The notes under the pieces were generated by a model. The model made no database searches and was not told the DNA's origin. It saw nothing but the letters and a program-made list of their open reading frames with translations. 35,576 nucleotides of DNA from Candidatus Thioglobus sp. (GTDB lineage Bacteria > Pseudomonadota > Gammaproteobacteria > PS1 > Pseudothioglobaceae). How positions within the stretch are numbered: the stretch's first letter is position 1; each line of letters begins with the position of its first letter. Positions 18,958-35,576 of this stretch are shown here, in pieces. The translations under genes and the position numbers were made by a program. The stretch spans positions 1-35,576 of the forward strand of contig JAOMCO010000011.1 in the NCBI GenBank assembly GCA_028345055.1, read 5' to 3'.

Positions 18958-19974
18958 TTAAAGAGAAACTCCTTTTTCATTAAACCAATGCGTATTATCT
19001 TCATCAAAGCCAACTTTGACAGATTCTCCTCCTTTGATAATGGTTTGATTATTTAGCTTGATTGATATCTCTTGATTATCTATGGTTGTTCCATAAAGGT
19101 AGCTGTCAGATCCCAATTGTTCAACACTTCTCACATCAAGAGGAAGAGCATTCTTCTCTTGAATTCTTAAGTGCTCAGGTCTAATACCAAAAGTTACTGC
19201 ACCTTTTGGAGCATGCTTTTTAATATCTTCTGGTAAAGAAGAGCTATCTAAAAAATTCATTTTTGGTGAGCCAATAAACCCAGCTACAAACAAATTAGCA
19301 GGTTTATTATATAAATCCAAAGGGGTACCAGTTTGTTCGATAATGCCGTCATGCATGACCACAATTTTATCAGCCATAGTCATAGCTTCAACCTGATCAT
19401 GGGTCACATATATCATGGTGTTTCCAAGCCTTGCATGAAGCGCTTTAAGCTCAACTCGGGTTGCAACACGAAGCTCAGCATCTAAGTTTGATAGGGGCTC
19501 GTCAAATAGATAGATTGATGGCTCTCTAACAATTGCTCTTCCAATTGCAACGCGCTGTCTTTGCCCGCCAGAAAGCTGTCCTGGTCTTCTTTTAAGGTAG
19601 TCCTCCATTCGTAACTGATTCGCAGCTTTGGTAATTCTCTCTTCAATATCATCTTTGTCTAACTTAAGATTTTCAAGACCAAAAGCAAGATTTTGACGAA
19701 CTGTCATATGTGGGTATAGAGCATAGGACTGAAAAACCATAGCAAGCCCTCTTTTCGCAGCAGAAATATTATTGACTATCTCATCATTGATTAATATTGA
19801 ACCTTCCGTAATTTCCTCTAATCCAGCTATCATTCTTAGGAGAGTCGATTTACCGCATCCAGAAGGGCCAACCAAGACGCAAAACTCGCCATCAAGAACT
19901 TCAAGATCAAGCCCATGTATAACTTCGGTTTTGCCATAAGATTTTTTAATATCAATTAGTTTAAGATTTGCCAT
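18958..19974 (-). CDS. sugar ABC transporter ATPase (MalK/UgpC type), second importer
   Basis: ATPase of the importer encoded at 19978-23797; its ATG follows the permease stop by 3 nt. Walker [11 protein letters not shown]-loop [11 protein letters not shown], signature [16 protein letters not shown], Walker [14 protein letters not shown] and His-switch YVTHDQVEAM are all intact. The C-terminal regulatory domain is shorter than in the other two copies (338 residues in all) but keeps GIRPEHL. Probably located at the inner face of the cytoplasmic membrane as a dimer under the two unusual permeases. Confidence 0.95.
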   Translation of the reverse strand: MANLKLIDIKKSYGKTEVIHGLDLEVLDGEFCVLVGPSGCGKSTLLRMIAGLEEITEGSILINDEIVNNISAAKRGLAMVFQSYALYPHMTVRQNLAFGLENLKLDKDDIEERITKAANQLRMEDYLKRRPGQLSGGQRQRVAIGRAIVREPSIYLFDEPLSNLDAELRVATRVELKALHARLGNTMIYVTHDQVEAMTMADKIVVMHDGIIEQTGTPLDLYNKPANLFVAGFIGSPKMNFLDSSSLPEDIKKHAPKGAVTFGIRPEHLRIQEKNALPLDVRSVEQLGSDSYLYGTTIDNQEISIKLNNQTIIKGGESVKVGFDEDNTHWFNEKGVSL

Positions 19975-19977
19975 AAT

Positions 19978-21411
19978 TTATTTCATGCCTGTTGAGGCAA
20001 TACCTGTTGTAATGTACTTTTGAAGGAAAACAAAGACTAGTGTTGTTGGAATCAAGCTGACCACTGTCATTGCTAATGCATAGTGCTCTCTAGCAAGATA
20101 CTCACCATTAAAATCTAGTAAACAAAGCTGAATAGTATAGGCAGCTTTAGTTGTCGAAACGGCTATCATTGGCAGAATCAAATCATTCCAACGCCATATG
20201 ATTGAGAGAATACCGAGCACTGCAATAGCTGGAAGTGCTAGTGGAAATATAATTCGCCAATAGATGGTCCATTCACTTGCCGCATCCATTCTTGCTGCCT
20301 CAAGCAGCTCGTCTGGAATAGTGAGCATGTATTGCCGCAACATAAAGACCCCGGTGGGTGTTGCAGCTCCCGGGATAATAACCCCCCACAGAGAGCCAGA
20401 TAATCCTGTCATGGTTACCATTTTAAAGATTCCAACAATAAGAACAGAGGCTGGAACCATTAGAGTTGCCAAAATAATCACAAAAAATACAATCTGTCCA
20501 TTGAAGCGATACTTTGACAAAGCGAAAGCAGCCATTGAGTTAATGAGAAGAGTGATGATAGTTGCAACAATGGTAACAAATACTGAATTATTCAAACACC
20601 TAACAGCATCAAAACTTCCCAATGCTTTCTTGGTGAGAGGATCTGTATAGTTAATCCAGGACGGCTTTAAACTCTTATTAATGATAATTTCATTCTGAGG
20701 AAGCTTGGTTATTCCTCCTTTAGGATCAGAAACAAGCCTTGCATTAACGGTATCCTTGGTTGGATTGATTCGACTTACAGAATATTCAATTATTTCTCCA
20801 GTCTCAGGGTCTGGCATAGAAACTAGGATTTGAGCAGTAAATCCATTTCCTTTATATGGCTTAAGCCCAAGGTATTCTGACAATAATCTTACATCTTCCT
20901 CATTCAGCGTGTCAACTATGGATTGAGGATCATACTCTTTTTTTGCACTAGGAAACATGCTTGGATATTTAATGAGCCATTCAGGTAAATTCTGATCAGC
21001 GATTAACTCTTTCGCAAAAACTGAAACCAAACCAAAGTGAGATCTTAAGGCGTAATACTCATTTCCAGTGAAATTTTTAATGTAATTAACAACATCTTTT
21101 TCAGCACGCTCTTCATCATCTAAATTCTTCCAAAACATGACCCATGGCTCTAAATCTTTCATGATAAGAATATCTTTTCCATCTGGACCATAAGTAGTTG
21201 CCCTTGCAACACGCTCATAATCCATTGGTAGAAAATTTGTATCATATTTTTGAAGCAGGAATTGCGACTTCACAGAATTCATTACAAGCCACAAAACTGG
21301 CAAAAATATAATTAAAAAGCCAAGAAATAAGAAACCATAAGATATCCAATCAGTTAAGCTGGCTTTCTTTTTTCCTTGCCTTCTAGTAAAAAATTTAATG
21401 ACGTCTGTCAT
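19978..21411 (-). CDS. MalG-type permease with giant extracytoplasmic insertion
   Basis: CUT1 permease of 477 residues; ordinary MalG-type proteins have about 280-300. The first membrane segment is residues 24-46, the next begins near 275, and the roughly 225 residues between them are polar and soluble-looking (with DPETGEIIEYSV and TKLPQNEIIINKSLK) and so should be outside the cytoplasm. The rest is standard, with the EAA loop LEAARMDAASEWTIYWRII and a C-terminus ending TGIASTGMK. The frame is continuous with no sign of a frameshift or gene fusion error. The insertion may contact the binding protein or the cell wall. It overlaps the preceding permease gene by 4 nt. Confidence 0.9.
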   Translation of the reverse strand: MTDVIKFFTRRQGKKKASLTDWISYGFLFLGFLIIFLPVLWLVMNSVKSQFLLQKYDTNFLPMDYERVARATTYGPDGKDILIMKDLEPWVMFWKNLDDEERAEKDVVNYIKNFTGNEYYALRSHFGLVSVFAKELIADQNLPEWLIKYPSMFPSAKKEYDPQSIVDTLNEEDVRLLSEYLGLKPYKGNGFTAQILVSMPDPETGEIIEYSVSRINPTKDTVNARLVSDPKGGITKLPQNEIIINKSLKPSWINYTDPLTKKALGSFDAVRCLNNSVFVTIVATIITLLINSMAAFALSKYRFNGQIVFFVIILATLMVPASVLIVGIFKMVTMTGLSGSLWGVIIPGAATPTGVFMLRQYMLTIPDELLEAARMDAASEWTIYWRIIFPLALPAIAVLGILSIIWRWNDLILPMIAVSTTKAAYTIQLCLLDFNGEYLAREHYALAMTVVSLIPTTLVFVFLQKYITTGIASTGMK

Positions 21412-22463
21412 AGCTTAACTTGTCTCCTAGTTAAATAGAATTGTAGCAAAGATAAAATAATCAATATGAGTGCTACAATTAAGGACGCCATTGCGGCAAT
21501 ACCAAGACCAAAAAATGTTTTTTGACCCCTAATACCAGCATTTTCAACAATATACGAGACCAAAGAAATCCATCCCACTTGAAGTGCATACAACTCTTCA
21601 AAAGCCTGAACAGCTTTAATTAGTGAAAGCACTGTAACGACGAGCAGAATTGGCATTAATAGTGGTAATGTAATGCGCCAAAATACCCTTCCATCTGATG
21701 TACCATCCATTTGTGCTGCCTCATAAAGATCTCTAGGGATTGATTGCAGACCAGCCAACAATATAAGCATATAAAAACCCATATGAGCCCATGTATAAAC
21801 AAAGATAGACCAAAACATAGTCCAAGAAGGGTCCACCAGCCACTGAATCGGCTCGCTAATCCAATTCCAATCTATTAAGGTTTGAGATAGCATTCCCTGC
21901 CGCTTCAAAATAAGAGTCCATAAAAAGGCAACAACAACAGGGCTTAGCATCACTGGATAGAAAAAAACAGCCCTCCAAAAACCTCTTCCAATAATCTCCC
22001 TATTAAGAACTATTGCAGTAAATAGTGCAATGAGAATCATAATTGGAACTTGGAGAATGACAAAAATAAAAGTGTCATAAAGAGCAGCCTGAAATTTATC
22101 ATTCTCAACATTAATTCCACCTGTATCAATTTGAACTTCTTGGGTAATTCTTGCGAGGTTATCAAGACCAGAGAAGTCTCGAGATTCAAAGTTTATACTT
22201 GTTCCATCCGTTACCGAAAAACCAAAATTCATAAACAACGGAAGGAATGTAAACAGACCAAATATCAGAATATTTGGGAATAAAAATAAATAAGGTAGTG
22301 ACTTGGTGCCGAATAATCTTTGAGTAAATTCTATTGGCCAACCTATACTAGACATTAGTTTAGGCACAAAACCATAAACCTCTTTTGAGAGCACAAAGCC
22401 AATCAAAAGATAGACAGTAAAGAACACAAACCAACTATTAAGATTTATAACAGACTCAAACAT
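21408..22463 (-). CDS. MalF-type sugar permease with N-terminal extension
   Basis: CUT1 permease of 351 residues. An extra membrane segment (about residues 12-28, FFTVYLLIGFVLSKEV) and an amphipathic stretch precede the usual core, which begins at LPYLFLFPNILIFGLFTFLP (about 56). The EAA loop reads LYEAAQMDGTSDGRVFWRITLP. Extracytoplasmic loops are longer than usual between the first two core segments (DGTSINFESRDFSG and a following stretch). It is separated from the upstream binding-protein gene by an 83-nt gap with a hairpin, and it overlaps the next permease by 4 nt. Confidence 0.9.
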   Translation of the reverse strand: MFESVINLNSWFVFFTVYLLIGFVLSKEVYGFVPKLMSSIGWPIEFTQRLFGTKSLPYLFLFPNILIFGLFTFLPLFMNFGFSVTDGTSINFESRDFSGLDNLARITQEVQIDTGGINVENDKFQAALYDTFIFVILQVPIMILIALFTAIVLNREIIGRGFWRAVFFYPVMLSPVVVAFLWTLILKRQGMLSQTLIDWNWISEPIQWLVDPSWTMFWSIFVYTWAHMGFYMLILLAGLQSIPRDLYEAAQMDGTSDGRVFWRITLPLLMPILLVVTVLSLIKAVQAFEELYALQVGWISLVSYIVENAGIRGQKTFFGLGIAAMASLIVALILIILSLLQFYLTRRQVKL

Positions 22464-22488
22464 TATCAGGGTTGAATTTTAAATAAAA

Positions 22489-22516
22489 TTAAGGCCGCCT
22501 CAAGAGACGGCCTTAA
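22489..22516 (-). terminator. hairpin between binding-protein and permease genes
   Basis: A perfect 9-bp stem (TTAAGGCCG with CGGCCTTAA) and a 10-nt loop, followed on the minus strand by T-rich but interrupted sequence. It lies 31 nt after the binding-protein stop. The same layout occurs in the first importer operon, so it is probably a partial terminator or mRNA-stabilising structure that favours the binding protein. Confidence 0.65.
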
Positions 22517-22546
22517 AGTTTAGACCTTAGTATAACTGAATTATGT

Positions 22547-23797
22547 TTATTCAGCTATCTTAGCTGCTACGTCAGCATCAATTGCTATCAAAGCGTCATC
22601 TAGGCTCATTTCACCTGTAATTGCTTTAGTTATGTAGTCAGGAACGATGCCATAAATCGCAAAGTTCTTGTTGTAACCTTGGAACCAATACGCTTGTGGT
22701 GTTGATTCAGCTGCTTTACCAGCGTTCGCCGCAAAAGTTGAAAGTCCTTCAGAAACTCTTGCACTTACACCAGGATAGTCAATTCCTGCCTTTTGAAGGC
22801 CTTGGTGAGCAGTAATATTCCTTGTATTAGCTGCAAAGTAACCAGCTCTTCCAGCTTGTGACATAAAGTCAACGAAAGATGCTGCAACATCTGGGTGTTT
22901 AGTTGAATTAAATGCAACAATTCCTGAGCCACCAGGCATTGCACCGCAACCACCAGTTCCGCAAGGAATTGGAACTACTTTCCACTCAAAGTCGGTGATA
23001 TTTGTGTCATAGTTGTTTAGCATCCATGATCCAGACATATGCATAGCTACAGTTCCGTCAAGGAATAGAGGTGCTGCATTTCTATAAGCAGTACCGCCAC
23101 CAGCAGGCCAGCCTTCAGCTGGCATTAAACCTTCTTTATGCCATCCAACAAATGTTTCAGCAAAATCTCTAAAGCCTTCATCAACTAGGATAGGGACTCC
23201 ATTCTCATGAAACTTAGCTCCATAAGAAAAAGCAGGACCAGCCCATCTATGAGCAGTTCTGTCCATTGCAAGGCCTGATGTTAATCCAAGCTCAGACTTA
23301 ACAACTCTTAGAGCATCAGCCCAATCATCCCAAGAAGCTCCTTCTTCTGGCATATCTACACCAGCATCTTCAAACATAGTGACGTTAACGTAAGGACCAG
23401 TCACTGTTAACTGAGTTTGCCAGCCATAAATTCCATTGTCACCAGATGGTTTTCTATACCATGGCAATGTAGCACCATAGTTAGCTTCCCAAGCTCCAGC
23501 ATCAACATAAGGAGTTAAATCAAGGTAGTACTGATTCAGACCACCTAGATTAGTAATACGAGCAACGTCTGGTGCTGAACCAGCTTCAAGTTGGTTTTCG
23601 AGCTGGTCTCTAACAACATCATAACCAACCACCTCAAAATTTACTGTATTACCTGTTGAGTTCTCCCAAACAGATGACATCTGCTGCAAAACGTCACACT
23701 CATTCGAATCTTGATAGCAAACAAACTTAATTTCTGCTGCGTTAACGCTGAATGAGGAGGCGGCAAGAACGGATGCCAATAAAATACTTTTTTTCAT
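22547..23797 (-). CDS. periplasmic sugar-binding protein, second importer
   Basis: CUT1 binding protein of 416 residues. The signal peptide is MKKSILLASVLAASSFSVNA-AE. I chose the ATG at 23797 because GGAGAG lies 5 nt before it; a TTG at 23809 is in frame but would place that SD inside the coding region. The mature protein starts EIKFVCYQDSNECDVLQQM with a Cys pair, and has LENQLEAGSAPDVARITN, QTQLTVTGPY and a Gly-rich MPGGSGIVAFNSTKHP. This style reminds me of proteins labelled digalacturonate-binding, but that is a weak recollection. No lipobox. The divergent operon suggests the ligand is the substrate of the aldolase pathway or its glycoside. Confidence 0.9.
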   Translation of the reverse strand: MKKSILLASVLAASSFSVNAAEIKFVCYQDSNECDVLQQMSSVWENSTGNTVNFEVVGYDVVRDQLENQLEAGSAPDVARITNLGGLNQYYLDLTPYVDAGAWEANYGATLPWYRKPSGDNGIYGWQTQLTVTGPYVNVTMFEDAGVDMPEEGASWDDWADALRVVKSELGLTSGLAMDRTAHRWAGPAFSYGAKFHENGVPILVDEGFRDFAETFVGWHKEGLMPAEGWPAGGGTAYRNAAPLFLDGTVAMHMSGSWMLNNYDTNITDFEWKVVPIPCGTGGCGAMPGGSGIVAFNSTKHPDVAASFVDFMSQAGRAGYFAANTRNITAHQGLQKAGIDYPGVSARVSEGLSTFAANAGKAAESTPQAYWFQGYNKNFAIYGIVPDYITKAITGEMSLDDALIAIDADVAAKIAE

Positions 23798-23911
23798 TTT
23801 TCTCTCCAATTGTTATATTACAAAAATCACAATAACTGCAATTTGTTTTAAGACTAATTCCATACGATTTAAAGGAAAAGCAAAAAAAATATATGAAATT
23901 ATTCAAATTGA

Positions 23912-23941
23912 AGTATACATGAATTCATATATAACAGTAAA
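23912..23941 (-). promoter_or_regulatory. possible promoter of second importer operon
   Basis: On the minus strand, -35 TTTACT (23941-23936), 18 bp, -10 TATACT (23917-23912). The -35 match is modest (4 of 6). Support comes from the near-identical -10 context ATGTATACT(A/T)C and the same 18-bp spacing at the glpK promoter. The leader would be about 110 nt. Confidence 0.4.
23914..23933. promoter_or_regulatory. 20-bp near-perfect palindrome in promoter spacer
   Basis: Nine of ten base pairs match around a perfect ATGAATTCAT core. It overlaps the -10 box and spacer of the proposed importer promoter, which is where a repressor would act. AT-rich palindromes can occur by chance, so this is a candidate only. 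Confidence 0.35.
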
Positions 23942-23966
23942 ATTAAGTTTAGATTTTTGGTACAGT

Positions 23967-23983
23967 GTTCCACTATGTAAAAC
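23967..23983. promoter_or_regulatory. candidate IclR-type operator, copy 1
   Basis: GTTCCACTATGTAAAAC. It matches the site at 30940-30956 at 14 of 17 positions. The GTTC...AAAC ends and the ACTAT core are of the form seen in IclR-family sites. It lies between the divergent importer and aldolase operons, 42 nt before the aldolase start, immediately after a TACAGT box (23961-23966) that could be its -10. Confidence 0.55.
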
Positions 23984-24024
23984 AAGATATCAGAAGTCAC
24001 GATTTTTAAATAATTATCTTAACA

Positions 24025-25047
24025 ATGAAAACTGATAACTTAGGAAAACTAATTCACCTTAAAAAGCTTTGTACTGATAATAATCATTTTCAAATGCTGG
24101 CTGTAGATCAAAGACCACCAATTTTTAATATCATAACTTCTTCAACAGGAAAGAATTACACCTATTCTCAAGTCGTTGAATGTAAAAAGTTAATTACTGA
24201 ACATTTGTCAAAACTTGCTACAGCAATTTTAATGGACCCTCACTATTCATTATCAAATATTCTTAAATACAATCAATCAAAGGGTCTTGTAATTACGCTC
24301 GAAGAGCATAGTTTTGTGGAAACTGAAAAAGGTCGTTATTCAAGTAATATTGATAACTGGAGTGTCGAGAAAATTAAAAGAGCTGGTGGTGATGCAGTCA
24401 AAGTTCTTGCTTGGTATAGACCTGACGCTGAAGATGAATCCCTAGAGCATCAAAAAAAATATGTAAGAGAGATTGGAGAAGAGTGTGAAAAATACAGCAT
24501 TCCATTCTTACTTGAGCTTCTTGTATACCCATTTCAAGATGACGAAAATCACACTAAAGAGTACCAAGAACAAAAACAGAAAAAAACTCAACACGTCATT
24601 GACAGCGTTAAAGAATTTTCAAAAGATAGGTATAAGGTTGATATTTTCAAACTTGAGAGTCCTGTCGATAGCAGTGAACTTGAGCATAAAATATCAGAAG
24701 AGACTGAATTAGCATTCAGAGAGCTTTCTGAGGCGACAAATGATAAGCCATGGGTTGTTTTATCTTCAGGAATGGGGAAAGAATCCTTTTATAAATGCTT
24801 GGAACTTGCATACAAAAATGGAGCTTCAGGCTATCTTGCAGGAAGAACAATTTGGCTTGATGCATTTGAAAACTATCCAAATATCATGGAAGTTGAAGAA
24901 GGCCTTATAAATGATTCTGTTAACTATGTCAGAAAACTTAATGAGCTAACCGCAAGAAATGCACAATCTCTTGATACTTATTTTGATAATGGATTTAAAA
25001 TTGATAACCCTGAACAGTTTACTAAAGATTTTGGAGATTTTGAATGA
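24025..25047 (+). CDS. class I aldolase of the LacD/YihT family
   Basis: A 340-residue (beta/alpha)8 aldolase related to tagatose-1,6-bisphosphate aldolase (LacD) and sulfofructose-1-phosphate aldolase (YihT). Visible motifs are QMLAVDQRPP (D28), DAVKVLAWYRPD (K126), LLELLVYP (E164), the Schiff-base Lys209 in VDIFKLESP, and PWVVLSSGM with GASGYLAGRTIW near residue 280, whose Arg binds phosphate or sulfonate in relatives. It would split a ketose 1-phosphate into dihydroxyacetone phosphate and a three-carbon aldehyde. First of five tightly coupled plus-strand genes. LacD-type and YihT-type substrates cannot be told apart from motifs alone; the neighbouring YihV-like kinase favours the latter or an analogue. 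Confidence 0.85.
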   Translation: MKTDNLGKLIHLKKLCTDNNHFQMLAVDQRPPIFNIITSSTGKNYTYSQVVECKKLITEHLSKLATAILMDPHYSLSNILKYNQSKGLVITLEEHSFVETEKGRYSSNIDNWSVEKIKRAGGDAVKVLAWYRPDAEDESLEHQKKYVREIGEECEKYSIPFLLELLVYPFQDDENHTKEYQEQKQKKTQHVIDSVKEFSKDRYKVDIFKLESPVDSSELEHKISEETELAFRELSEATNDKPWVVLSSGMGKESFYKCLELAYKNGASGYLAGRTIWLDAFENYPNIMEVEEGLINDSVNYVRKLNELTARNAQSLDTYFDNGFKIDNPEQFTKDFGDFE

Positions 25048-26420
25048 TTGGATATTTAGCGCTTGCAAGAGAGACTTTTGATGTTGAATTTGCTGAATCT
25101 AAATTTATCAAAGGAAAAACTATTTTGCAATCTCTCTCGCCAGATGCAATAGGATTTGATAAATTAATTACAAATGATTTAGTGGCAGATGAAGCTTTGT
25201 CTTTTTTTGAAAGCAACATGTGTGAAAAAATTTTTCTCTTTCAAACAACGTTTACTGATGCCAAGTTTCTCTTAAACTTTGCCAAGTCTATTCAAAGACC
25301 ATTATGTATCGTTTCTTTTCCAGAGCCTAGAACTGGTGGAAGATTGAGATTAAATTCAGTTTGTGGGCTTAATCTAGCAATGCACTCTCTAATTAAAAAT
25401 GATATTACTCCTGATTTCGTAATTATGGGAGAGGATGACAAAACTAATGAAATATCGTTTTCTAACTTTATTCAAAGTCAAAATGAAAGCAAAAAAATAT
25501 CATGGAATATAGCGTCTATTTCAGATCATACAGCTGACTTTGACTATTCTATTGACAAACAAACAATTGGAATTATTGGAACCAGGCCTGAAGGATTTGA
25601 TACCTGTGACTATGACTCAAACGAGGTTACTTCTAAACTCAATGTTTCTCTAATTGATCTCGAACTTGAAGATTTATTTGATGAGGCTAGAGATATTGAA
25701 CAAGATACAATTATTAAAACTAAAAATACTGTCTCTAGCTACTTGGCAGGTACAGAGGAATTGGTTCAGGAAGAATTCGACAAGAGCCTTTCTATTTTTC
25801 ACGGACTTGAAAACCTAAAAGATAAACATAATTTAGATGCGTTTGCCATTAGATGCTGGCCTGAAACTTTTACGGAATATGGATGCGCTTCATGTGGCCC
25901 TATGGCAATGATGAATGAAAAGATGGTTAGTTGTGCTTGCGAGGCAGATGTTTTGGGAGGTATCAGTTGTAACATTCTCAATCAAATGAATAATGATCCT
26001 TCGCTTTTAGTCGATATTGTTGATGTTGATAAATCAGATAATTCTCTAGTTTTTTGGCATTGCGGCTTAGCACCTATTAGTATGGCAAAAGAAGGTACCG
26101 CAAAGTCTGGAATTCACTCAAACAGAAAAAAACCACTCCTTCATGACTTTAGCCTGAAGGAAGGAAAAATTACGATATTTAGGGTCTCTAAGGCAAAAGG
26201 AAAGCTTCAGTTTTTTGTAATGAATGGTGAGGTTCTCGATCGACCGAATTCATTCTCAGGAACCTCAGGAGTAATTAATTTAGGCGATGACAGCGCACAT
26301 AAATTAGAGCAAATGTTTAAGGGCGGTTTAGAGCACCATGTAGCATTTACTTATGGTGATATTTCTGACAAACTTATCCATTTTGGCCAGCAAATGAACA
26401 TACCAACTTATACGCTATGA
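25044..26420 (+). CDS. L-fucose/arabinose isomerase-like protein
   Basis: A 458-residue protein of the fucose-isomerase superfamily (COG2407-like). Probable Mn ligands are E300 in ACEADVLGG and D324 in LLVDIVDVD, whose spacing of 24 equals that of E337 and D361 in E. coli FucI, with H339 in FWHCGLAP and a later His pair in GLEHHVAFTYGD. IIGTRPEGFDTCDY and the Cys-rich IRCWPE...YGCASCGP segment are typical. Such enzymes convert an aldose to a ketose; one branch (SqvD/SftI type) isomerises sulfoquinovose. Start and preceding stop overlap as ATGA. It would supply the ketose for the kinase downstream. Confidence 0.8.
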   Translation: MIGYLALARETFDVEFAESKFIKGKTILQSLSPDAIGFDKLITNDLVADEALSFFESNMCEKIFLFQTTFTDAKFLLNFAKSIQRPLCIVSFPEPRTGGRLRLNSVCGLNLAMHSLIKNDITPDFVIMGEDDKTNEISFSNFIQSQNESKKISWNIASISDHTADFDYSIDKQTIGIIGTRPEGFDTCDYDSNEVTSKLNVSLIDLELEDLFDEARDIEQDTIIKTKNTVSSYLAGTEELVQEEFDKSLSIFHGLENLKDKHNLDAFAIRCWPETFTEYGCASCGPMAMMNEKMVSCACEADVLGGISCNILNQMNNDPSLLVDIVDVDKSDNSLVFWHCGLAPISMAKEGTAKSGIHSNRKKPLLHDFSLKEGKITIFRVSKAKGKLQFFVMNGEVLDRPNSFSGTSGVINLGDDSAHKLEQMFKGGLEHHVAFTYGDISDKLIHFGQQMNIPTYTL

Positions 26421-27505
26421 TAGAAAAAATTAAATATGCCATTATTGGTGCTGGATGTATGGGTCAAGAACATATCTTAAACATTGGAATAATTGATGAT
26501 GCTGAGGTTGTTGCATTATGTGATACCAGCGAGCAATCAATTAAAGATAGCCTTGAACTTCTTAATAATGAAGTCGCTATTTTTAATGATTACAATGATC
26601 TAATTGATGCAAATATTGCTAATGCATTCATCATTGCAACTCCCAACTTTACTCATATCGATGTTCTCAAAGATGTCATGAAATCAGAGGTTCATCTTTT
26701 AATTGAAAAACCCCTCTGCACGACTGTAAAAGACTGCAAAGAATTTGAAAAACTAGCAGAAAACTATCCTGGAGTCATCTGGACTGCAATGGAGTATCGT
26801 TATATGCCACCGGTCCAAAGAATGATTAAGGAGATTCATAATAATACAATTGGGGATTTAAAAATGCTTTCAATACGAGAGCATCGTTTTCCATTTCTTC
26901 ACAAAGTAGATGATTGGAATCGCTTTTCCATTAAAACTGGTGGAACTTTAGTTGAAAAATGCTGCCATTTTTTTGATTTGATGAGATTGATTGCGCAAAG
27001 TGAGCCCGTCAAGGTTTATGCCAGTGGCAATCAAGATGTAAACCATCTTGATGAAAACTATGATGGAATGACGCCTGATATTATTGACAATGCATTTGTT
27101 ACTGTTGACTTTGAAAATGGTGTTAGAGCCATCTTGGATTTATGTATGTTTGCGGAAAACTCTGAATATCAAGAGGAATTGTGTGCTGTGGGCTCTATTG
27201 GAAAAATTGAGACTGAAGTTCCGTCAAATGCCTCTGGTATAACTAATTCTGATATCAGAATTGGAATGAGAGTTGAACAAACTGCATTAAAAGAAAATAT
27301 AAAGGTAGATCCTAAAATTCATGATGCTGGTCACCATCATGGCTCCACATATTATGAGCATACTTCTTTTATTAATGCAATTCGGAATAACACAGAGTCG
27401 GAAGTATCCCTTAGAGATGGTTTAATTGCGGTTGCAATTGGTGAAGCTGCAGAAAAATCAATTAAAGAAGGGAGAGTTGTTCAAATGAGTGAATTCAACC
27501 TCTAG
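26417..27505 (+). CDS. Gfo/Idh/MocA-family protein
   Basis: A 362-residue NAD(P)-binding protein: Rossmann loop IIGAGCMGQEH (residues 9-19), EKPL with Lys98, and a second alpha/beta domain with YRYMPPVQRM, REHRFPFL, DWNRFSIKTGGTLVEKCCHF and DLCMFAE. Family members oxidise sugars or polyols, and some are NAD+-dependent glycosidases that use a transient oxidation (GH109, GH188). The conserved KCCHFFDLMR and HHHGSTYYEH segments could hold catalytic His residues. It overlaps the isomerase gene by 4 nt. If the pathway begins from a glycoside such as sulfoquinovosyl glycerol, this protein could be the gateway glycosidase, since no classical sulfoquinovosidase is in the window. That is speculation. 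Confidence 0.85.
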   Translation: MIEKIKYAIIGAGCMGQEHILNIGIIDDAEVVALCDTSEQSIKDSLELLNNEVAIFNDYNDLIDANIANAFIIATPNFTHIDVLKDVMKSEVHLLIEKPLCTTVKDCKEFEKLAENYPGVIWTAMEYRYMPPVQRMIKEIHNNTIGDLKMLSIREHRFPFLHKVDDWNRFSIKTGGTLVEKCCHFFDLMRLIAQSEPVKVYASGNQDVNHLDENYDGMTPDIIDNAFVTVDFENGVRAILDLCMFAENSEYQEELCAVGSIGKIETEVPSNASGITNSDIRIGMRVEQTALKENIKVDPKIHDAGHHHGSTYYEHTSFINAIRNNTESEVSLRDGLIAVAIGEAAEKSIKEGRVVQMSEFNL

Positions 27506-27541
27506 CAACAATAACTCCATATTTTCATTAAAATTGACTAA

Positions 27542-28447
27542 ATGATTACATGCGTTGGACCTATTTTTCTGGATAGAGTGATCAAGATTGATCGCTTTCC
27601 TGATAAGCCAATTAAACTAGTAGCAAGTGGACTTGAAAAACGCCTAGGTGGACCTGCTCCAGTTGCAAGTTTTGCAATTAAATCATTAGGTGGCGAAGCT
27701 GAATTTATAGGGCGTTTTGGCGACGACGATGCTGCTGATTATTTAAAGTCGGAATTACTAAATTCTGGAATATCTATCCAAAAGTCTATTGATGTAGTCG
27801 ATGCGCAAACATCTCAAAGTCATATTTTTGAGGATCGAAAAGGCGAAAGAATGCTTGCAGTATATAACGAAGAAAAGCTTACTAATGAAAAAATCTTACC
27901 ATCATTTGACTTTTCCAGTAACCAATCATATCTTGTAGATACGAATTGGATTGAGGCGGCTCATTTTGTTGCCATTCAGTCAAAAAAACACAAGATTAAT
28001 TGCGTAGTAGATCTTGATAATTTTAATAACAGCAAAATAGTTGATGAAGTAGTCAATTCTGCTTCACATCCGGTCTTTTCGGAAATTGGATTGAACCAGT
28101 ACACAGACAATATGCCTATTATTGATGCATTAAAAAGTCTTTACCAAAAAAATCAAAAGTTTTATGCTGTAACTCTTGGAGCTAAAGGCGTTTATTGGGT
28201 TGAAAATGGAGACATTTTCCACTGCCAATCTCCAGAGATTAACGTCAAAGAAACCAATGGAGCTGGAGATGTCTTTCATGGAGCGTTTGCTCAATTTATC
28301 AGGACTAAAACCTCAAAGGAGGCTATTGAGTTAGCAACTGCTACTGCGTCACTCAAGTGCACTAGATCTGGAGGAATTAAAACTCTCCCAGACTATCCGG
28401 AAGTAAAAGAATTTTTAAATCAAATAGAACCATCTAAACAAATATAG
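27542..28447 (+). CDS. PfkB-family sugar kinase, YihV (sulfofructose kinase)-like
   Basis: A 301-residue ribokinase-fold kinase. The C-terminal signature NGAGDVFHGAFAQF (base Asp243) and LKCTRSGG closely parallel E. coli YihV (GAGDVFHGA, LKCTRPGG), as do EFIGRFGDDD, TSQSHIF, KGER and HPVFSEIGL. This goes beyond general PfkB similarity. From recall of YihV, the sulfonate is held by Lys27, Asn109 and Arg138; here the aligned residues are Lys25, Val107 and Asn135, so only the Lys is kept. It should phosphorylate C1 of a ketose, giving the aldolase its substrate. It follows a 36-nt gap and lies 3 nt before the dehydrogenase. Sulfofructose or another 6-modified ketose is likely. Confidence 0.85.
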   Translation: MITCVGPIFLDRVIKIDRFPDKPIKLVASGLEKRLGGPAPVASFAIKSLGGEAEFIGRFGDDDAADYLKSELLNSGISIQKSIDVVDAQTSQSHIFEDRKGERMLAVYNEEKLTNEKILPSFDFSSNQSYLVDTNWIEAAHFVAIQSKKHKINCVVDLDNFNNSKIVDEVVNSASHPVFSEIGLNQYTDNMPIIDALKSLYQKNQKFYAVTLGAKGVYWVENGDIFHCQSPEINVKETNGAGDVFHGAFAQFIRTKTSKEAIELATATASLKCTRSGGIKTLPDYPEVKEFLNQIEPSKQI

Positions 28448-28450
28448 ACA

Positions 28451-29377
28451 ATGAAAAAAGTACTAATAACAGAATTCATGGAGCAAGACAGTGTTGATAA
28501 AATTTCAAAAAGTTTTGAAGTAACTTATGACCCTAGTCTTTATGAAAATCCCGAGAATTTGAGCTCTTTAATAATGGAAACTGATGCTGTCATAGTTCGA
28601 AATAAGACTCAGCTTACTGAAGAGCTTCTATTGAAGGCGAATAAATTAAGTTTTGTTGGAAGACTAGGTGTCGGTTTGGACAATATTGATACTGATTTTT
28701 GTTCAGCTAATGGTATTTTTGTTCAGCCAGCTACAGGTATGAATGCTGACTCGGTGGCTGAATATGTCATTACTTGTGCATTATCATTATTAAAAAATAT
28801 TCCAATTGCTCACTCCGGAACTGCTTCAGGGCAATGGCCAAGAACCTCTATTGAGTCGAGAGAGTTAGGAGGAAAAACTCTTGGACTTCTTGGTTTTGGT
28901 ACCATTGGAAGAAAGGTCTGTCGGTTGGCCCAGTTGTTTGGAGCAGAAGTAATCGCATATGACCCTTTTTTTCAGAAATCTGATGTTTCTGAATTCGATA
29001 TATCTCTTGTGGAGCAAGAAAACCTTTTTAGTCTTTCTGATGTAATTTCGATTCACCTTCCCTTAACCAATGACACAAAAGACTTAATCAATGAAAATTC
29101 ATTTAAATTGATGAAGCGTAATCCAATTATTATTAATTCTTCAAGAGGTTCAATTGTCAACGAGCTAGATTTGATCGAAGCTTATAGCCAAAATGTAATT
29201 AGTGGCTTTGCTCTTGACGTGTATAGCTCTGAGCCAGTTCAAGAGGATTTTTACAAACAAATCTCAAACTCAATGAACTGTATTCTTACCCCTCATAACT
29301 CAGGTGTAACATCTGAGTCAAATGTCAGAGTTAGCCAATTCATTGCAGAAAAGACGATTGACTTTCTTGAGAGTTAA
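28451..29377 (+). CDS. D-isomer-specific 2-hydroxyacid dehydrogenase (possibly SlcC-like)
   Basis: A 308-residue SerA-like dehydrogenase without the C-terminal ACT domain. The NAD loop [12 protein letters not shown] is central; the catalytic Arg is in [11 protein letters not shown], the Glu region in LDVYSSEPV and the His in [13 protein letters not shown]. The N-terminal [12 protein letters not shown] and [11 protein letters not shown] motifs recall (S)-sulfolactate dehydrogenase SlcC of sulfonate degraders, though SerA relatives also share GVGxDN. It ends the operon and its stop overlaps the convergent glpK stop by 4 nt. A substrate such as sulfolactate, glycerate or phosphoglycerate cannot be fixed from sequence. 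Confidence 0.85.
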
Positions 29378-30873
29378 TTATTGGAGAGTGTTCTCTTAAC
29401 TGCGTCTTTCCATCCAGAGAGTTTCCTTTGTCTATGTTCATCTGTCATCTTTGAATTAAATTGACTTTCTGACTGCCAAGTCTCAGAAAACTCATCCATT
29501 GATGGATAAAAGCCAACTTGCATACCAGCTAAATATGCCGCACCTAATGCAGTTGTTTCAAGATTTTTTGGCCTATCAACTGGAAGTTCAACCAGATCAG
29601 AAAGCATCTGCATTGTCCAGTTTGAAGCGGCCATACCTCCATCCACTCTAATAGCACTAAGTTTGCTTTCACCCAAATCTTTTGAAATTGCATTTAATAA
29701 ATCAGAAGTTTGATAACAGACTGACTCAAGTGTAGCCTTAGTGATTTCAGCTGGACCTGTATTACGAGTCATTCCAAAAAGCGCACCCCGACAGTCTGGA
29801 TCCCAATACGGTGCACCTAGCCCTACAAATGCTGGAACAAGATAAACATCTTGAGACACATCAGCCTGCATTGCAAGTGTTTCAGATTGCTCAGCTGAAT
29901 CAATGAATTTTAAACTATCACGCAGCCATTGAACTGCAGCTCCAGCGATAAAAATTGACCCTTCAAGAGCGTAACAAGTTTTACCACTTACTTGGAAAGC
30001 CAGGGTAGTAAGTAATTTATTGTTTGACTTAATAGGCTCAAAGCCAGTATTAATTAATACAAAGCAACCAGTGCCATAAGTCGATTTCACCATGCCAGGA
30101 TGAAAACATGCCTGACCAACAAGAGCAGACGGCTGATCACCAATTGATGCTGCAATTGGTATCTCTGTGCCAAAGACAGACTCATCAACTTTTCCAAAGT
30201 CAGCAGCATTATCATAAACCTGAGGAAGCATTGATGCAGGAACATTGAAAAGGTCCAGCAAATCTTCATCCCAGCTTCCATCATGAATATTATATAAAAG
30301 GGTTCGACAAGCATTAGTGGCATCAGTTGAGTGAACTTTCTTATCACTTAATCGCCACATAAGAAAGCAATCAATTGTTCCAAAGAGAAGTTGACCTTTA
30401 TTAGCTTTTTCACGAGCACCCTCAACATTATCGAGAATCCAGGCAATTTTAGTGGCACAAAAATAAGGATCAAGAAGAAGTCCTGTTTTTTGGTTCACTT
30501 GAGACTCGTGACCCAAATCTTTTAAACTTTGGCACTGATCAGAGGTTCTTCGATCCTGCCAAACAATGGCATTATAAATCGGCTTACCAGTCTCCTTGTC
30601 CCAAACAACTGTCGTCTCTCTTTGATTGGTGATGCCTATTGCTTCAATTTGATTAGGCTCAATTTTCGATTCTGTAATTGCGCTCCGGCAGCTCTCAACT
30701 GTTGAAGTCCAAATTTCCTCAGGATCATGTTCAACCCAACCAGAATCAGGAAAAAATTGCGTAAACTCTCTTTGCCCTATTGAAATAATTTCATAGTTTT
30801 CATCAAATAAGACGCCTCTTGATGAGGTCGTTCCTTGATCAATCGACAATATATATTTTGTAATTTTTGACAT
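29374..30873 (-). CDS. glpK: glycerol kinase
   Basis: Phosphorylates glycerol to sn-glycerol 3-phosphate. The 499-residue length and motifs are canonical: [17 protein letters not shown] at the N-terminus, [48 protein letters not shown] and [18 protein letters not shown]. It stands alone, without glpF or glpD nearby, between the aldolase operon (convergent) and iclR (divergent). A TTGAAT-N18-TATACT promoter and a candidate IclR-type site lie upstream, suggesting induction together with the aldolase/importer system. Glycerol released from a glycosylglycerol would explain its placement. Confidence 0.97.
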
Positions 30874-32927: not shown

Positions 32928-34829
32928 CTAGATTGCTTCCCAAAAAACCCCTGAGGCTGGGATTTTTATTGAGCCTACCGTTGACTCCTCCTCGCTAAAA
33001 TTAAACCAAAAGCGATGAGTTGAAGTCTCTCTAATCCTGACACAATCATTCAGATAAGTAATACTGATCTCTTGATCAGCACATATATCAGTAAAAATAC
33101 TTCTTAACGTATCTTGATCGGCCCAACCAGCGATATAAAGGTTTTTTTCATTTCCAATAATTGCTGGCCTGCCATCATCACAGAACTTAATCACATTATC
33201 AGAATCAACTAAGGTCTCCATCCACTTTTTAAAATAGCCATGATCTTTGATGGGAATTTCTGCCTTAGGCCTTAGTGTTTCGACGCGAGCAACGGTTCCT
33301 TTAATGCCTGGAACCACTGGTGGAAGATTTTTTGGAATCGACATATCTAAAGTCTTTGAGCCAGTTCTGGGGCCTGAAATGATAACCCCATCAAATTCTT
33401 TAATGGCGTTCTCAAGCTGATCTCCAATATGCATTAAGCCTGGCAATAATACAACTTTATAGTCACTCAAATCAATTTCATTGGGAGGTATTATGTCGAT
33501 GGATAAACCTAACGATCTGAGAGCTCTGTAATAGTCATATACCAACTCAAAATAGGTAAAGTCTTTTCCTTGAGGCATGACCTCCCATGCCCAGCAGCTC
33601 TCATAGTCAAAAATCAGTGCTACTGTTGATTGAACTTGATCTATACTATCAAACTCTTTTAATTCTGAAAAGACCTGAGATGCTTCACTAAGTCCTGGGG
33701 CCTTAACTCCATCTGGCCTATTTAGTCCTGCATGCATTTGTTCTTGGGCAAACGGAGCCTGCCTCCATCTAAAATAACTGACCACTTCAGCACCGTGTGC
33801 GATTGCCTCCCAAGTCCACAATCTTACAGCTCCATTTGCAGGCTCTGGGTTATAAGGTGCCCAATTGACTGGGCCGGGCTGCTGCTCCATTACCCACCAG
33901 CGTCCATTTCCAACCGTACGGTAAAGATCATGATGAAATGACTGAAAATCTGGATCTCCAAAGCGCATAAATTTACTTTTAAAGCTATCACTTTGATTCG
34001 ATCGATCCTCCAAAAATCCCAGAGGATAACTGTCCCAGCTCGCTATATCTAAATCCTTGCCAACCTCATAATGATTAAAGTCAGTAATTCGACCCATATA
34101 GTTATGAATTAATGGTGCTTGAGTATATTTTCTCAGGACTTGCGATTGGCTTCGATTGAACTTAATAACTTGATCAGAGCTGAACCGTTTGAAGTCAAGA
34201 GAATGAATTGGATTTGGATCAGTTATGGTTAGATTAGGTAGCTGGATTTGTTCAAAATCATTGTATTCCATCGACCAAAATACATTTTTCCAGGATTCAT
34301 TTAGCTGCTCAATCGTTTTGTACTTTTTTAAAGTCCATCTTCTAAAGGCTTTAAGAGCAGATCGACTATAGGATAGTGTGGTGTCATGACAGCCATATTC
34401 GTTATCCAGCTGCCATGCTTTTATGAATGAATTATCCCCATATCGTTTTGCAACGATTTCTGAAATTCTTATTGCTTCCTCGAGGTACCCTTCATGTGAA
34501 AAGCAATAGTGCCTTCTCGATCCAGATTGACGAGCCCTACCATCAGCATCAACGATAAGCATATCTGGCCATTTATCAATGACCCATCGGGGCGGTGTTG
34601 CGGTAGGCGTGCTCATTACTATATTTAATCCAGCAGAACCCAAAATAGAAATTGCGCGATCAAGCCATTCGAAGTTATAAACACCCTCTTCAGGCTCAAT
34701 TCGACTCCAAGCAAATTCTCCAATTCTTACCCATGCCAAGCCATAGTTAATCATATCATCAGCATCTTTCTGCCACTGCTCTTCAGACCAGTGTTCGGGG
34801 TAATAACAGCTTCCTAGTTTTGGAGTCAT
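32928..34829 (-). CDS. GH42 beta-galactosidase
   Basis: Glycoside hydrolase family 42, about 633 residues. The TIM barrel starts at LGSCYYPEHWSEEQW; the acid/base is Glu144 in WQLDNEYGCH and the nucleophile Glu315 in WVMEQQPGPVNW. The trimerisation domain begins around TVALIFDYESCWAWE and a small C-terminal beta domain follows. No signal peptide, so it should act in the cytoplasm on imported beta-galactosides. I chose the ATG at 34829, 7 nt after the lactonase stop; an in-frame start at 34883 would add 18 unlikely residues overlapping that gene. With the lactonase upstream it suggests galactose oxidation to galactonate. Galactosylglycerol is a possible substrate given glpK nearby. Confidence 0.93.
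   Translation of the reverse strand: MTPKLGSCYYPEHWSEEQWQKDADDMINYGLAWVRIGEFAWSRIEPEEGVYNFEWLDRAISILGSAGLNIVMSTPTATPPRWVIDKWPDMLIVDADGRARQSGSRRHYCFSHEGYLEEAIRISEIVAKRYGDNSFIKAWQLDNEYGCHDTTLSYSRSALKAFRRWTLKKYKTIEQLNESWKNVFWSMEYNDFEQIQLPNLTITDPNPIHSLDFKRFSSDQVIKFNRSQSQVLRKYTQAPLIHNYMGRITDFNHYEVGKDLDIASWDSYPLGFLEDRSNQSDSFKSKFMRFGDPDFQSFHHDLYRTVGNGRWWVMEQQPGPVNWAPYNPEPANGAVRLWTWEAIAHGAEVVSYFRWRQAPFAQEQMHAGLNRPDGVKAPGLSEASQVFSELKEFDSIDQVQSTVALIFDYESCWAWEVMPQGKDFTYFELVYDYYRALRSLGLSIDIIPPNEIDLSDYKVVLLPGLMHIGDQLENAIKEFDGVIISGPRTGSKTLDMSIPKNLPPVVPGIKGTVARVETLRPKAEIPIKDHGYFKKWMETLVDSDNVIKFCDDGRPAIIGNEKNLYIAGWADQDTLRSIFTDICADQEISITYLNDCVRIRETSTHRFWFNFSEEESTVGSIKIPASGVFWEAI
32942..32967 (+). terminator. 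weak terminator-like hairpin after orphan ATPase
   Basis: Sixteen nt after the ATPase stop, AAAAA-CCC can pair with GGG-TTTTT across a short loop, with one bulged A. It lies in the 3' coding end of the GH42 gene. The structure is imperfect and may be fortuitous. Confidence 0.3.
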
Positions 34830-34836
34830 AGTAATC

Positions 34837-35576
34837 TCACAATTCAACTTGATACTCAGCCAAACCGACTGCGTCAGCTTCAAAATGAAACACTTTACCA
34901 GCCAAAGGCTCTGCTTTCAAATCCTCATCACTCAAAGTTTGGCTAGCAGTCGTTACAAAAATAGTATCAAATGATTTACCTCCAAACGCTGGGCAAGTCA
35001 CCTGTGATGCAGGAAAGTTCTCCACCCTGTCTAACCATCCTTCCGGGCTATATCTAGCTATTCTAGATGCACCATATTGAGCATTCCATAGAAAACCCTC
35101 ACTATCGCAAACTGACCCATCTGGATGAAGGCCCTGCGCCTTCAAATCAATAAATATAATAGGTTCATTGATTGGCCAACCATTTTTCTGATCTAAATCT
35201 TGTCTCCAGATTTTCTCTTGTCTTGTGTCTGCAAAATAAACAAATTTTTTATCCGGTGAAAAGCAGATACTATTTGGAATCGTTAGCTCTTGATGCAGCT
35301 GTTCTAACTCACCCTTATAAAAACGATAAATTGAACCTGCTTCTTTTTCCGCATTAAGTCCCATTGTTCCAATCCAGAAGCCACCCCAAGGATCAGCTCT
35401 TCCATCATTTGAACGTGTATGCGGCAAATCAGCCTCTAAATCAACTAAAACTGTCCTTTTATCTGATGTGAGCGATAGTTTTATGAGCGATGAAGCACTG
35501 GCTATGATTAGGTTTTCTTTATCTATCCAACCAGCGGCAGATACTGGTTCAGAAAAATTCCAAGCCTTCAGTTCGC
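34837..35576 (-). CDS. SMP-30/gluconolactonase-family lactonase, N-terminus beyond window
   Basis: Six-bladed beta-propeller sugar lactonase of the SMP-30/gluconolactonase/LRE family; 245 codons are present and the reading frame continues to the right edge, so the true start is outside. The metal-site and family motifs are RSNDGRADPWGGFWIGTMG (about residue 55 of this fragment), SICFSPDKKFVYFADT (the conserved Asn before it is a usual ligand) and LHPDGSVCDSEGFLWNA. The TTG at 35427 is internal: residues before it (KRTVLVDLEADLPHTRSND) clearly belong to the same family. It lies 7 nt upstream of the GH42 gene on the same strand. Hydrolysis of galactono- or arabinono-lactone is likely in a non-phosphorylating sugar oxidation route. 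Confidence 0.9.
   Translation of the reverse strand, partial: ELKAWNFSEPVSAAGWIDKENLIIASASSLIKLSLTSDKRTVLVDLEADLPHTRSNDGRADPWGGFWIGTMGLNAEKEAGSIYRFYKGELEQLHQELTIPNSICFSPDKKFVYFADTRQEKIWRQDLDQKNGWPINEPIIFIDLKAQGLHPDGSVCDSEGFLWNAQYGASRIARYSPEGWLDRVENFPASQVTCPAFGGKSFDTIFVTTASQTLSDEDLKAEPLAGKVFHFEADAVGLAEYQVEL

Follow-up and report, generated by a model that had tools for sequence, protein, structure and literature searches.

Which sugar is handled by five tightly packed genes on contig JAOMCO010000011.1 of Candidatus Thioglobus sp. (assembly GCA_028345055.1), and by what route? The stretch analyzed here (the window) is this entire contig, 35,576 bases long, from a genome of 1.31 Mb that is 74% complete. 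Our analysis points, with a probability of about 0.72, to an operon that serves the use of sulfoquinovosyl-glycerol, the delipidated head group of algal and cyanobacterial sulfolipid, via a route of the sulfo-Embden-Meyerhof-Parnas (sulfo-EMP) type leading to pyruvate and sulfite.

Open reading frame (ORF) calls combined with domain searches reveal five plus-strand ORFs at 24025-29377 that form a single tight operon, in which genes 1 and 2 as well as genes 2 and 3 overlap by 4 bases, and the later gaps are 36 and 3 bases:

24025..25047, plus strand: putative class I sulfofructose-1-phosphate (sulfohexulose-1-phosphate) aldolase of a LacD-side clade; 340 aa, Pfam DeoC
25044..26420, plus strand: putative sulfoquinovose-sulfofructose isomerase, SftI/SqvD-like (FucI family); 458 aa, Fucose_iso_C
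26417..27505, plus strand: putative NAD-dependent sulfoquinovosidase SqgA (GH188); 362 aa, GFO_IDH_MocA
27542..28447, plus strand: putative 6-deoxy-6-sulfofructose kinase, YihV-like, with an altered sulfonate pocket; 301 aa, PfkB
28451..29377, plus strand: putative (S)-sulfolactate dehydrogenase, SlcC-like; 308 aa, 2-Hacid_dh

A first-pass annotation, made by a model from the sequence alone, had described five packed genes of these families, divergent from a sugar importer, and this layout was borne out (24025-29377 versus 18958-23809).

Predicted functions of the operon genes

The third gene had been correctly placed in the Gfo/Idh/MocA family, but its more specific identity was missed: its product is predicted to be an NAD-dependent sulfoquinovosidase of family GH188. 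The closest PDB matches are the sulfoquinovosidase structures 8qc2 (375 bits over 355 residues) and 8qc3 (374 bits), followed by a putative oxidoreductase, 8zn9 (339 bits), after which the scores drop to 84 bits. In ArSqgA, the substrate is contacted by Lys107, Tyr136, Glu189, His193, and His321, and the sulfonate by the triad of Arg166, Leu170, and Lys172 (PMC10755693; here and below, statements on published systems refer to the portions of the cited texts available to us). The corresponding residues were located by motif, not by residue numbering: the motifs EKP, MEYRYM, VEK-CH, and HHGSTY are kept in 14 of the 14 sequences from the genus, as are the Arg, Leu, and Lys of the sulfonate triad, which in the window are contained in the segment RFPFLHK. 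An inositol dehydrogenase role was considered and rejected (IolG, 128 bits against a cut-off of 355). The published SqgA cleaved sulfoquinovosides and not the tested glucosides or glucuronide (PMC10755693).

The search against SqvD/SftI that had been proposed for the isomerase gave a full-length match to SftI (NCBIfam NF048012), residues 2-456 aligning with profile positions 4-441 at 297 bits. Glu300, His339, and His431/432 are invariant over 11 aligned isomerases and are candidates for the metal site, some or all of which may bind the metal. The structure predicted for this protein had a predicted local distance difference test (pLDDT) of 58 and a predicted template modeling score (pTM) of 0.39.

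The kinase had been described as YihV-like, and YihV is indeed its nearest solved relative (7ag6, 154 bits), ahead of 2rbc (104 bits) and the ribokinases (58 bits or less). The aldolase scores 331 bits against NCBIfam PRK12858 (cut-off 184), and its best PDB match is 8tnf with 280 bits, versus 122-144 for LacD and 64-69 for YihT. The 8tnf entry, from Paracoccus strain Merri, is titled "sulfohexulose-1-phosphate aldolase," a functional label that rests on the depositors' title. A Foldseek search with an aldolase model of pLDDT 64 placed 8TNF at ranks 1-8, with a template modeling (TM) score of about 0.7 and a root-mean-square deviation of about 16. Lys209 of the aldolase aligns with Lys193 of YihT, which we take to be the Schiff-base lysine; Arg132 and Asp134 are common to four YihT-type sequences and are not found in the single LacD sequence aligned. 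In strain Merri, a PF00294/PF01791 pair that could form an EMP-type route, but was not induced, has been described (PMC12421959), and 8tnf is taken here to be the PF01791 protein of that pair.

The product of the last gene, for which a comparison with SlcC had been suggested, is 41-42% identical to Paracoccus dehydrogenases encoded beside ComC-like and SuyAB-like genes, 42% identical to the SlcC-like proteins of two further clusters considered below (G122 and G351), and 29% identical to the phosphoglycerate dehydrogenase of the Chlorohelix cluster. In the 3 of 10 plasmid records of its relatives that were opened, an Ldh (ComC-like) neighbor is present in all three and a UxaA-family (SuyAB-like) pair in two; neighbors of this kind in Paracoccus have been named SlcC, ComC, and SuyAB (PMC9594981). 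The last gene is thus best described as SlcC-like, that is, a match to (S)-sulfolactate dehydrogenase, so that sulfolactate would be processed onward rather than sulfolactaldehyde (SLA) being reduced.

Two of these searches, taken on their own, would fit the degradation of a non-sulfonated ketose of the tagatose or fructose type, in which a Gfo/Idh/MocA sugar dehydrogenase is combined with a phosphoglycerate-dehydrogenase-like enzyme: the NCBIfam label of the aldolase is "tagatose 1,6-diphosphate aldolase," and the best PDB sequence matches of the last gene product are phosphoglycerate dehydrogenases (187 bits). We consider such a function highly improbable in view of the SqgA motifs, the SftI-like isomerase, the SlcC-like context, and three parallel clusters in other genomes; besides, the "tagatose" model is also hit by YihT of E. 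coli, with a score below the cut-off (137 bits).

Conservation of the locus and independent clusters

The locus was compared across 14 genomes: that of the window and those of 13 relatives in the genus that also bear the cluster; a fourteenth such relative, G016, where the cluster is split over contigs, was left out. The isomerase, SqgA, the kinase, and the 2-hydroxyacid dehydrogenase are found together beside the same importer in 14 of the 14 loci, which argues that their grouping is not due to chance. The solute-binding protein of the importer was found in 13 loci; in the remaining one (L024), the contig stops within the importer. All five operon genes are subject to purifying selection, with ratios of nonsynonymous to synonymous substitutions (dN/dS) of 0.03-0.14 for pairs with dS below 2.5; the kinase is the fastest evolving of the five (mean dN to the window 0.189, versus 0.086 for SqgA).

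SqgA and the isomerase were each detected in 15 of 58 genomes, the same 15 in both cases and all within the genus of the window (29 genomes), taken here to be Candidatus Pseudothioglobus. The cluster is thus accessory in this genus, being carried by roughly one genome in two. A search of viral contigs found no occurrence. Among 398 sampled Pseudomonadota genomes, the isomerase was present in four, including the window's own, and in each of the other three it is adjoined by SqgA, a LacD-side aldolase, and a YihV-type kinase. These clusters are organized as follows, each gene being labeled after the reference protein of E. coli, Zymomonas, or Paracoccus that it matches best (SSADH, succinate-semialdehyde dehydrogenase):

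G351: SSADH-ComC-SlcC-SuyZ-SuyB-SuyA-GntR-SqgA-isomerase-aldolase-kinase
G122: kinase-aldolase-isomerase-SqgA-mutarotase-SSADH-SlcC
G316: SqgA-isomerase-aldolase-kinase; a CsqR-like regulator follows after about 5 kb

Thus, G351 carries a complete candidate route to pyruvate and sulfite within one cluster; in G316, neither SlcC nor SuyAB was found within the 14 kb fetched. These independent clusters are the strongest functional evidence because two of the three link the upper genes to sulfolactate genes. Together with the family searches, they strongly support the initial proposal of a sulfosugar route with an EMP-type isomerase, kinase, and aldolase, the isomerase being of the FucI type and YihU being absent. 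Another set of this kind is encoded on the Zymomonas mobilis plasmid pZZM402, where an SftI-like isomerase, SqgA, and a YihV-like kinase occur with a class II aldolase, an aldose epimerase, an SSADH, and a TonB receptor; judging from the gene content, this would be a hybrid sulfo-EMP pathway.

Predicted pathway

The families, active-site motifs, synteny, and presence of SuyAB-like and ComC-like genes are read from the sequences; from these, we infer the substrate, each catalytic step including SLA oxidation, and the transporter specificity. In the proposed scheme, the ABC (ATP-binding cassette) importer would take up sulfoquinovosyl-glycerol, from which SqgA would free sulfoquinovose and glycerol. 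The SftI-like isomerase would convert sulfoquinovose to sulfofructose, the YihV-like kinase would phosphorylate sulfofructose at C1, and the class I aldolase would cleave sulfofructose-1-phosphate to dihydroxyacetone phosphate (DHAP) and (S)-sulfolactaldehyde. The latter would be oxidized to (S)-sulfolactate by an enzyme encoded outside the operon, the best candidate being a GabD-like aldehyde dehydrogenase (ALDH). SlcC would then yield sulfopyruvate, ComC would reduce sulfopyruvate to (R)-sulfolactate, and SuyAB, encoded away from the operon, would split (R)-sulfolactate into pyruvate and sulfite. The released glycerol could enter metabolism as DHAP via GlpK and GlpD.

The genes that bear on uptake and on the fate of glycerol are:

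18958..19974, minus strand: ABC importer ATPase; ABC_tran, TOBE_2
19978..21411, minus strand: ABC importer permease 2; 477 aa, with a long insertion in the N-terminal part and BPD_transp_1 confined to residues 299-469
21408..22463, minus strand: ABC importer permease 1; BPD_transp_1
22547..23809, minus strand: ABC importer solute-binding protein; SBP_bac_1
23810..24024, no strand: region between the divergent importer and operon, predicted to contain the promoters of both; 215 bases
29374..30873, minus strand: glycerol kinase GlpK, which probably handles the glycerol set free; 749 bits to NCBIfam GlpK against a cut-off of 498

The glpK gene is also present at 8 of the 13 relative loci fetched, some of which end early. 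A glycerol-3-phosphate dehydrogenase gene lies between SqgA and the kinase in one relative (G013) and near the importer in another (G014), and regulators of the DeoR/GlpR type are found in four of the four loci tested. The conjunction of glycerol genes with SqgA indicates sulfoquinovosyl-glycerol as the likely substrate. The importer (18958-23809), which consists of the solute-binding protein, two permeases, and the ATPase, diverges from the operon across the 215-base region. This region has a conserved core across 6 aligned loci of the 14; a scan for a promoter consensus gave 25 matches versus 25.2 expected, which is the chance level. In permease 2, the permease domain is matched only from residue 299 onward; full-length relatives are likewise 477-478 aa long, so that the long N-terminal part is conserved.

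Evidence against the reconstruction and alternative explanations

Several observations weigh against this reconstruction, both in its upper and in its lower part. The isomerase falls below the equivalog cut-off of NF048012 (297 versus 700 bits) and, for this reason, is denoted SftI/SqvD-like here, not a member of that family. Comparison isomerases score 245-288 bits in four other SqgA clusters and 245-343 bits for the five from other clusters; because these five also fall short of 700 bits, the shortfall is common to the relatives tested. The PDB matches of the solute-binding protein are weak (best, 42 bits), with none to a named sulfoquinovosyl-binding protein.

The kinase pocket is altered throughout the genus. 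In an alignment of 20 kinases, we read the positions of YihV Lys27, Asn109, and Arg138, presumably the sulfonate ligands. The K/N/R combination is present in 12 of the 20, including YihV itself and the kinases of G316, G122, G351, and Zymomonas; four kinases of the genus have K/V/N (three) or K/V/H (one), those of Cereibacter and Rhizobium RCAM05350 have K/L/R, and an Arthrobacter kinase and ribokinase have none of the three. Across 14 kinases of the genus, Lys27 is kept in all, Asn109 is replaced by Val in all, and Arg138 is replaced by Asn in eight and His in six. Asn109 is not universal in any case, since the two YihV-like kinases of Cereibacter and Rhizobium RCAM05350 have Leu. An Arg at position 34 of the window kinase is invariant in the genus, and five other kinases compared have Val there. 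In the kinase tree, the genus forms a long branch and the deep order is weak.

In the aldolase tree, the sequence from the window falls with LacD, and a branch with 97/97 support sets it apart from YihT. Thus, of the LacD/YihT-type class I assignment in the first-pass annotation, class I and affinity with LacD stand, and clustering with YihT does not; the enzyme is closer to 8TNF and LacD than to YihT. Grouping of the aldolase with tagatose enzymes was the outcome named there as contrary to the proposal, and taken literally this is what the tree shows; yet the aldolases of the clade nearest to it are encoded in SqgA clusters. The same side of the tree holds the aldolases of G316, G122, G351, and rhizobial clusters along with LacD, with no firm order within; FbaB, LacD, and the second G028 aldolase have long branches. 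Furthermore, two of the 13 related loci, L024 (G008) and L027 (G014), have no aldolase gene, and these cluster-bearing genomes, 82% and 77% complete, respectively, yielded no aldolase match at E 1e-10 genome-wide. As a tentative and somewhat doubtful suggestion, the pocket of the genus kinase could have been rebuilt, with the gain of Arg34, either for a new mode of sulfonate recognition or for another sulfohexulose, and the aldolase could have been lost in one sub-branch, with a housekeeping aldolase replacing it.

An operon directed at the C4 epimer sulfofucose, free or as glycosides, and acting via sulfotagatose and sulfotagatose-1-phosphate, would account for both the LacD-type (tagatose) aldolase and the altered kinase pocket. 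The position of the aldolase in the tree and the changes in the kinase pocket are in line with such a substrate, as is the origin of the nearest solved aldolase relative from strain Merri, a sulfofucose degrader (PMC12421959). In that strain, however, the kinase and the aldolase were not raised on sulfofucose, the route in use being of the Entner-Doudoroff (ED) type, and sulfofucose is described as rare (PMC12421959). The sole NCBIfam match of the isomerase is the sulfoquinovose (SQ) isomerase SftI, and published SqgA is active on sulfoquinovosides, sulfofucosides not being mentioned in the available portion of that report (PMC10755693). We therefore view sulfofucose as a quite unlikely substrate, and retain sulfoquinovosyl-glycerol.

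The fate of SLA is the other weak point. Of the sulfo-EMP enzymes, the operon has candidates for the isomerase, kinase, and aldolase, and it holds no gene devoted to the oxidation or reduction of SLA; the absence of a YihU-type reductase noted in the first pass holds for the operon. A cluster-specific SLA dehydrogenase was sought and rejected: eight genomes gave 67 ALDH matches at E 1e-60, of which 62 were grouped at 58% identity and five, in frames of 78x aa, were left out; no group was present in all five cluster-bearing genomes and in none of the three others, the best being 3 of 5. The GabD-like ALDH, the only group close to the ALDHs of the SQ clusters, occurs in all eight genomes searched, including the three that lack the cluster. 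Its identity to the G351 SSADH reaches 60%, and its gene sits among ABC-transporter genes. It passes the SSADH subfamily cut-off (720 versus 646 bits) and misses the E. coli GabD equivalog (755 versus 828). Because an SLA dehydrogenase that is 61% identical to E. coli SSADH has been reported (PMC10599462), assignment of the GabD-like ALDH to this step is possible.

SuyAB is not tied to the operon either. The SuyB family (PF04295) is represented in 17 of the 29 genomes of the genus, eight of which were examined for orthology. These 17 comprise 11 of the 15 cluster-bearing genomes and 6 of the 14 others, so that the suy locus is not specific to the SQ route; the four cluster-bearing genomes that lack SuyB are 57-82% complete. 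The suy locus also carries HpsN/HpsO-like genes for 2,3-dihydroxypropane-1-sulfonate (DHPS). A DHPS-type organization, with SuyA, SuyB, HpsN-like, an HpsO-like short-chain dehydrogenase/reductase, an alcohol dehydrogenase, GntR, and a tripartite ATP-independent periplasmic (TRAP) transporter, is kept in eight loci (L057-L059, L062-L064, L120, and L121), with ComC in three genomes. The ComC-like genes, 51-55% identical to those of Paracoccus, are part of the suy locus in three genomes (G014, G016, and G017) and lie outside it in three more (G000, G003, and G006).

An alternative would be a version of the same sulfoglycolysis that ends in excretion of sulfolactate or another C3 product, SuyAB serving only a separate DHPS route. 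In its favor, SuyAB is encoded in a DHPS-type locus together with HpsN/HpsO-like proteins and the TRAP transporter, and it occurs in 6 of the 14 cluster-negative genomes. The SlcC of the operon, however, would be of little use if (S)-sulfolactate were simply excreted; ComC is present, in three genomes within the suy locus itself, and G351 has the whole route in one cluster. Excretion thus appears unlikely, and continuation to pyruvate and sulfite remains our preferred reading.

Comparison with known pathways

The pathway in the window would share with the E. coli sulfo-EMP pathway (YihS/YihV/YihT/YihU) the intermediates, a YihV-like kinase, and a class I aldolase. It differs in that a FucI-type isomerase takes the place of YihS, the aldolase is of the LacD side, GH188 replaces YihQ, YihU is missing from the operon, and an SlcC-like gene is added. 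By contrast, homologs of YihS, YihV, and YihT all occur in the Arthrobacter sulfo-EMP cluster (PMC8873060). The FucI-family isomerase is shared with sulfo-EMP2 of Firmicutes (SqvD/SqiK/SqiA; PMC9594981), in which the kinase is of the PfkA family and the aldolase of class II, unlike the PfkB-family kinase and class I aldolase here. Mixed isozymes also characterize the hybrid sulfo-EMP/EMP2 clusters of Vibrio and Yersiniaceae, the latter likewise swapping in SqvD (PMC9594981, PMC13372026, PMC12890257); both of these hybrids use the class II aldolase SqiA, whereas the aldolase here is class I, on the LacD side.

The sulfofucose-sulfolactate tandem pathway of Paracoccus strain Merri has the same SlcC/ComC/SuyAB tail, encodes a PF00294 kinase and a PF01791 aldolase, and similarly has no assigned SLA dehydrogenase; it differs in its ED-type upper route, the lack of induction of the kinase and aldolase, and the lack of an isomerase in the cluster (PMC12421959). 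The G351 cluster combines the same four upper enzymes and the SlcC-like gene with contiguous SSADH, ComC, SuyZ, and SuyAB.

A very similar arrangement, suggested to be a possible new pathway, is the actinobacterial GH188 Tyr-variant cluster of IMCC26103 (PMC11465081), which we compared by its published gene description. GH188, fucose isomerase, sulfofructose kinase, D-3-phosphoglycerate dehydrogenase, sulfofructose phosphate aldolase, and ABC transporters are common to both clusters (PMC11465081). Only the IMCC26103 cluster contains an SLA dehydrogenase and both SuyAB subunits, SuyAB being distant here, and it has Tyr in place of Leu170, which is kept here (PMC11465081). Hybrid EMP/EMP2 clusters have been reviewed (PMC12890257) and demonstrated in Vibrio (PMC13372026). 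Because hybrid clusters, including the very similar actinobacterial one, are already published, we regard the operon as a variant and not a new kind: the mix of modules highlighted in the first-pass annotation is present but not unprecedented.

Other genes in the window and additional clusters

Past the operon and glpK, the window encodes a GH42 beta-galactosidase and an SMP-30/gluconolactonase (32928-35427). In relatives (L018, 16391-19774; L021, 117-4409), these genes are followed by those for 2-keto-3-deoxy-6-phosphogalactonate aldolase and 2-keto-3-deoxygalactonokinase, so this region is perhaps a De Ley-Doudoroff-like galactose cassette for galactosylglycerol, the other thylakoid-lipid head group. 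An amidohydrolase at 17544-18908 matches 8-oxoguanine deaminase (682 bits, cut-off 532) and adjoins the importer in 7 of the 13 relative loci. A Gig2-like protein with a weak PhyH match (10076-11311) is encoded between the first ABC importer and a gene for an AGE-family sugar isomerase (11694-12887), which lies beside a two-component system. A YihS role for this isomerase was rejected: the nearest structures are 3gt5 and 5x32 (549 and 504 bits), and the YihS entries score 143-155 (2afa is named N-acetylglucosamine isomerase).

Two additional types of clusters were encountered. Plasmids of Neorhizobium, Rhizobium, and Shinella (L066, L067, and L133) carry an ABC importer, a YihV-like kinase with K/N/R, and a LacD-side aldolase. 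Two of them have an annotated TSUP transporter, two encode sulfatases, and the Shinella plasmid adds an SSADH; no isomerase was seen in these stretches. This looks like another sulfosugar pathway. A second cluster (L060, G028:C1:1643000-1662900, and L061, G008:C12) encodes a distant SftI-like isomerase (134 bits), a pair resembling pyruvate dehydrogenase E1, Dak1/DhaL, ALDH, a YihU-like reductase (280 bits, cut-off 348), and, in G028, a LacD-like aldolase.

Implications

Sulfoquinovose is made on a gigaton scale (PMC13372026). The marine SQ degraders described in the literature considered here belong to the Roseobacter clade and to Vibrio, and more than 9% of aquatic genomes have been predicted in a survey to encode SQ pathways (PMC13372026, PMC10755693). 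We found no literature, in mostly open texts exclusive of supplements, that links Pseudothioglobus with sulfoquinovose; one paper mentions both Thioglobus and sulfoquinovose, and does not join them in the portions available. With the operon in 15 of 29 Pseudothioglobus-type genomes, a marine lineage of Gammaproteobacteria with small genomes would join the organisms that take part in the sulfolipid cycle. Its parts list would also provide a clean comparative case for a LacD-side class I aldolase, rather than YihT or SqiA, acting as the sulfofructose-phosphate aldolase in several clusters.

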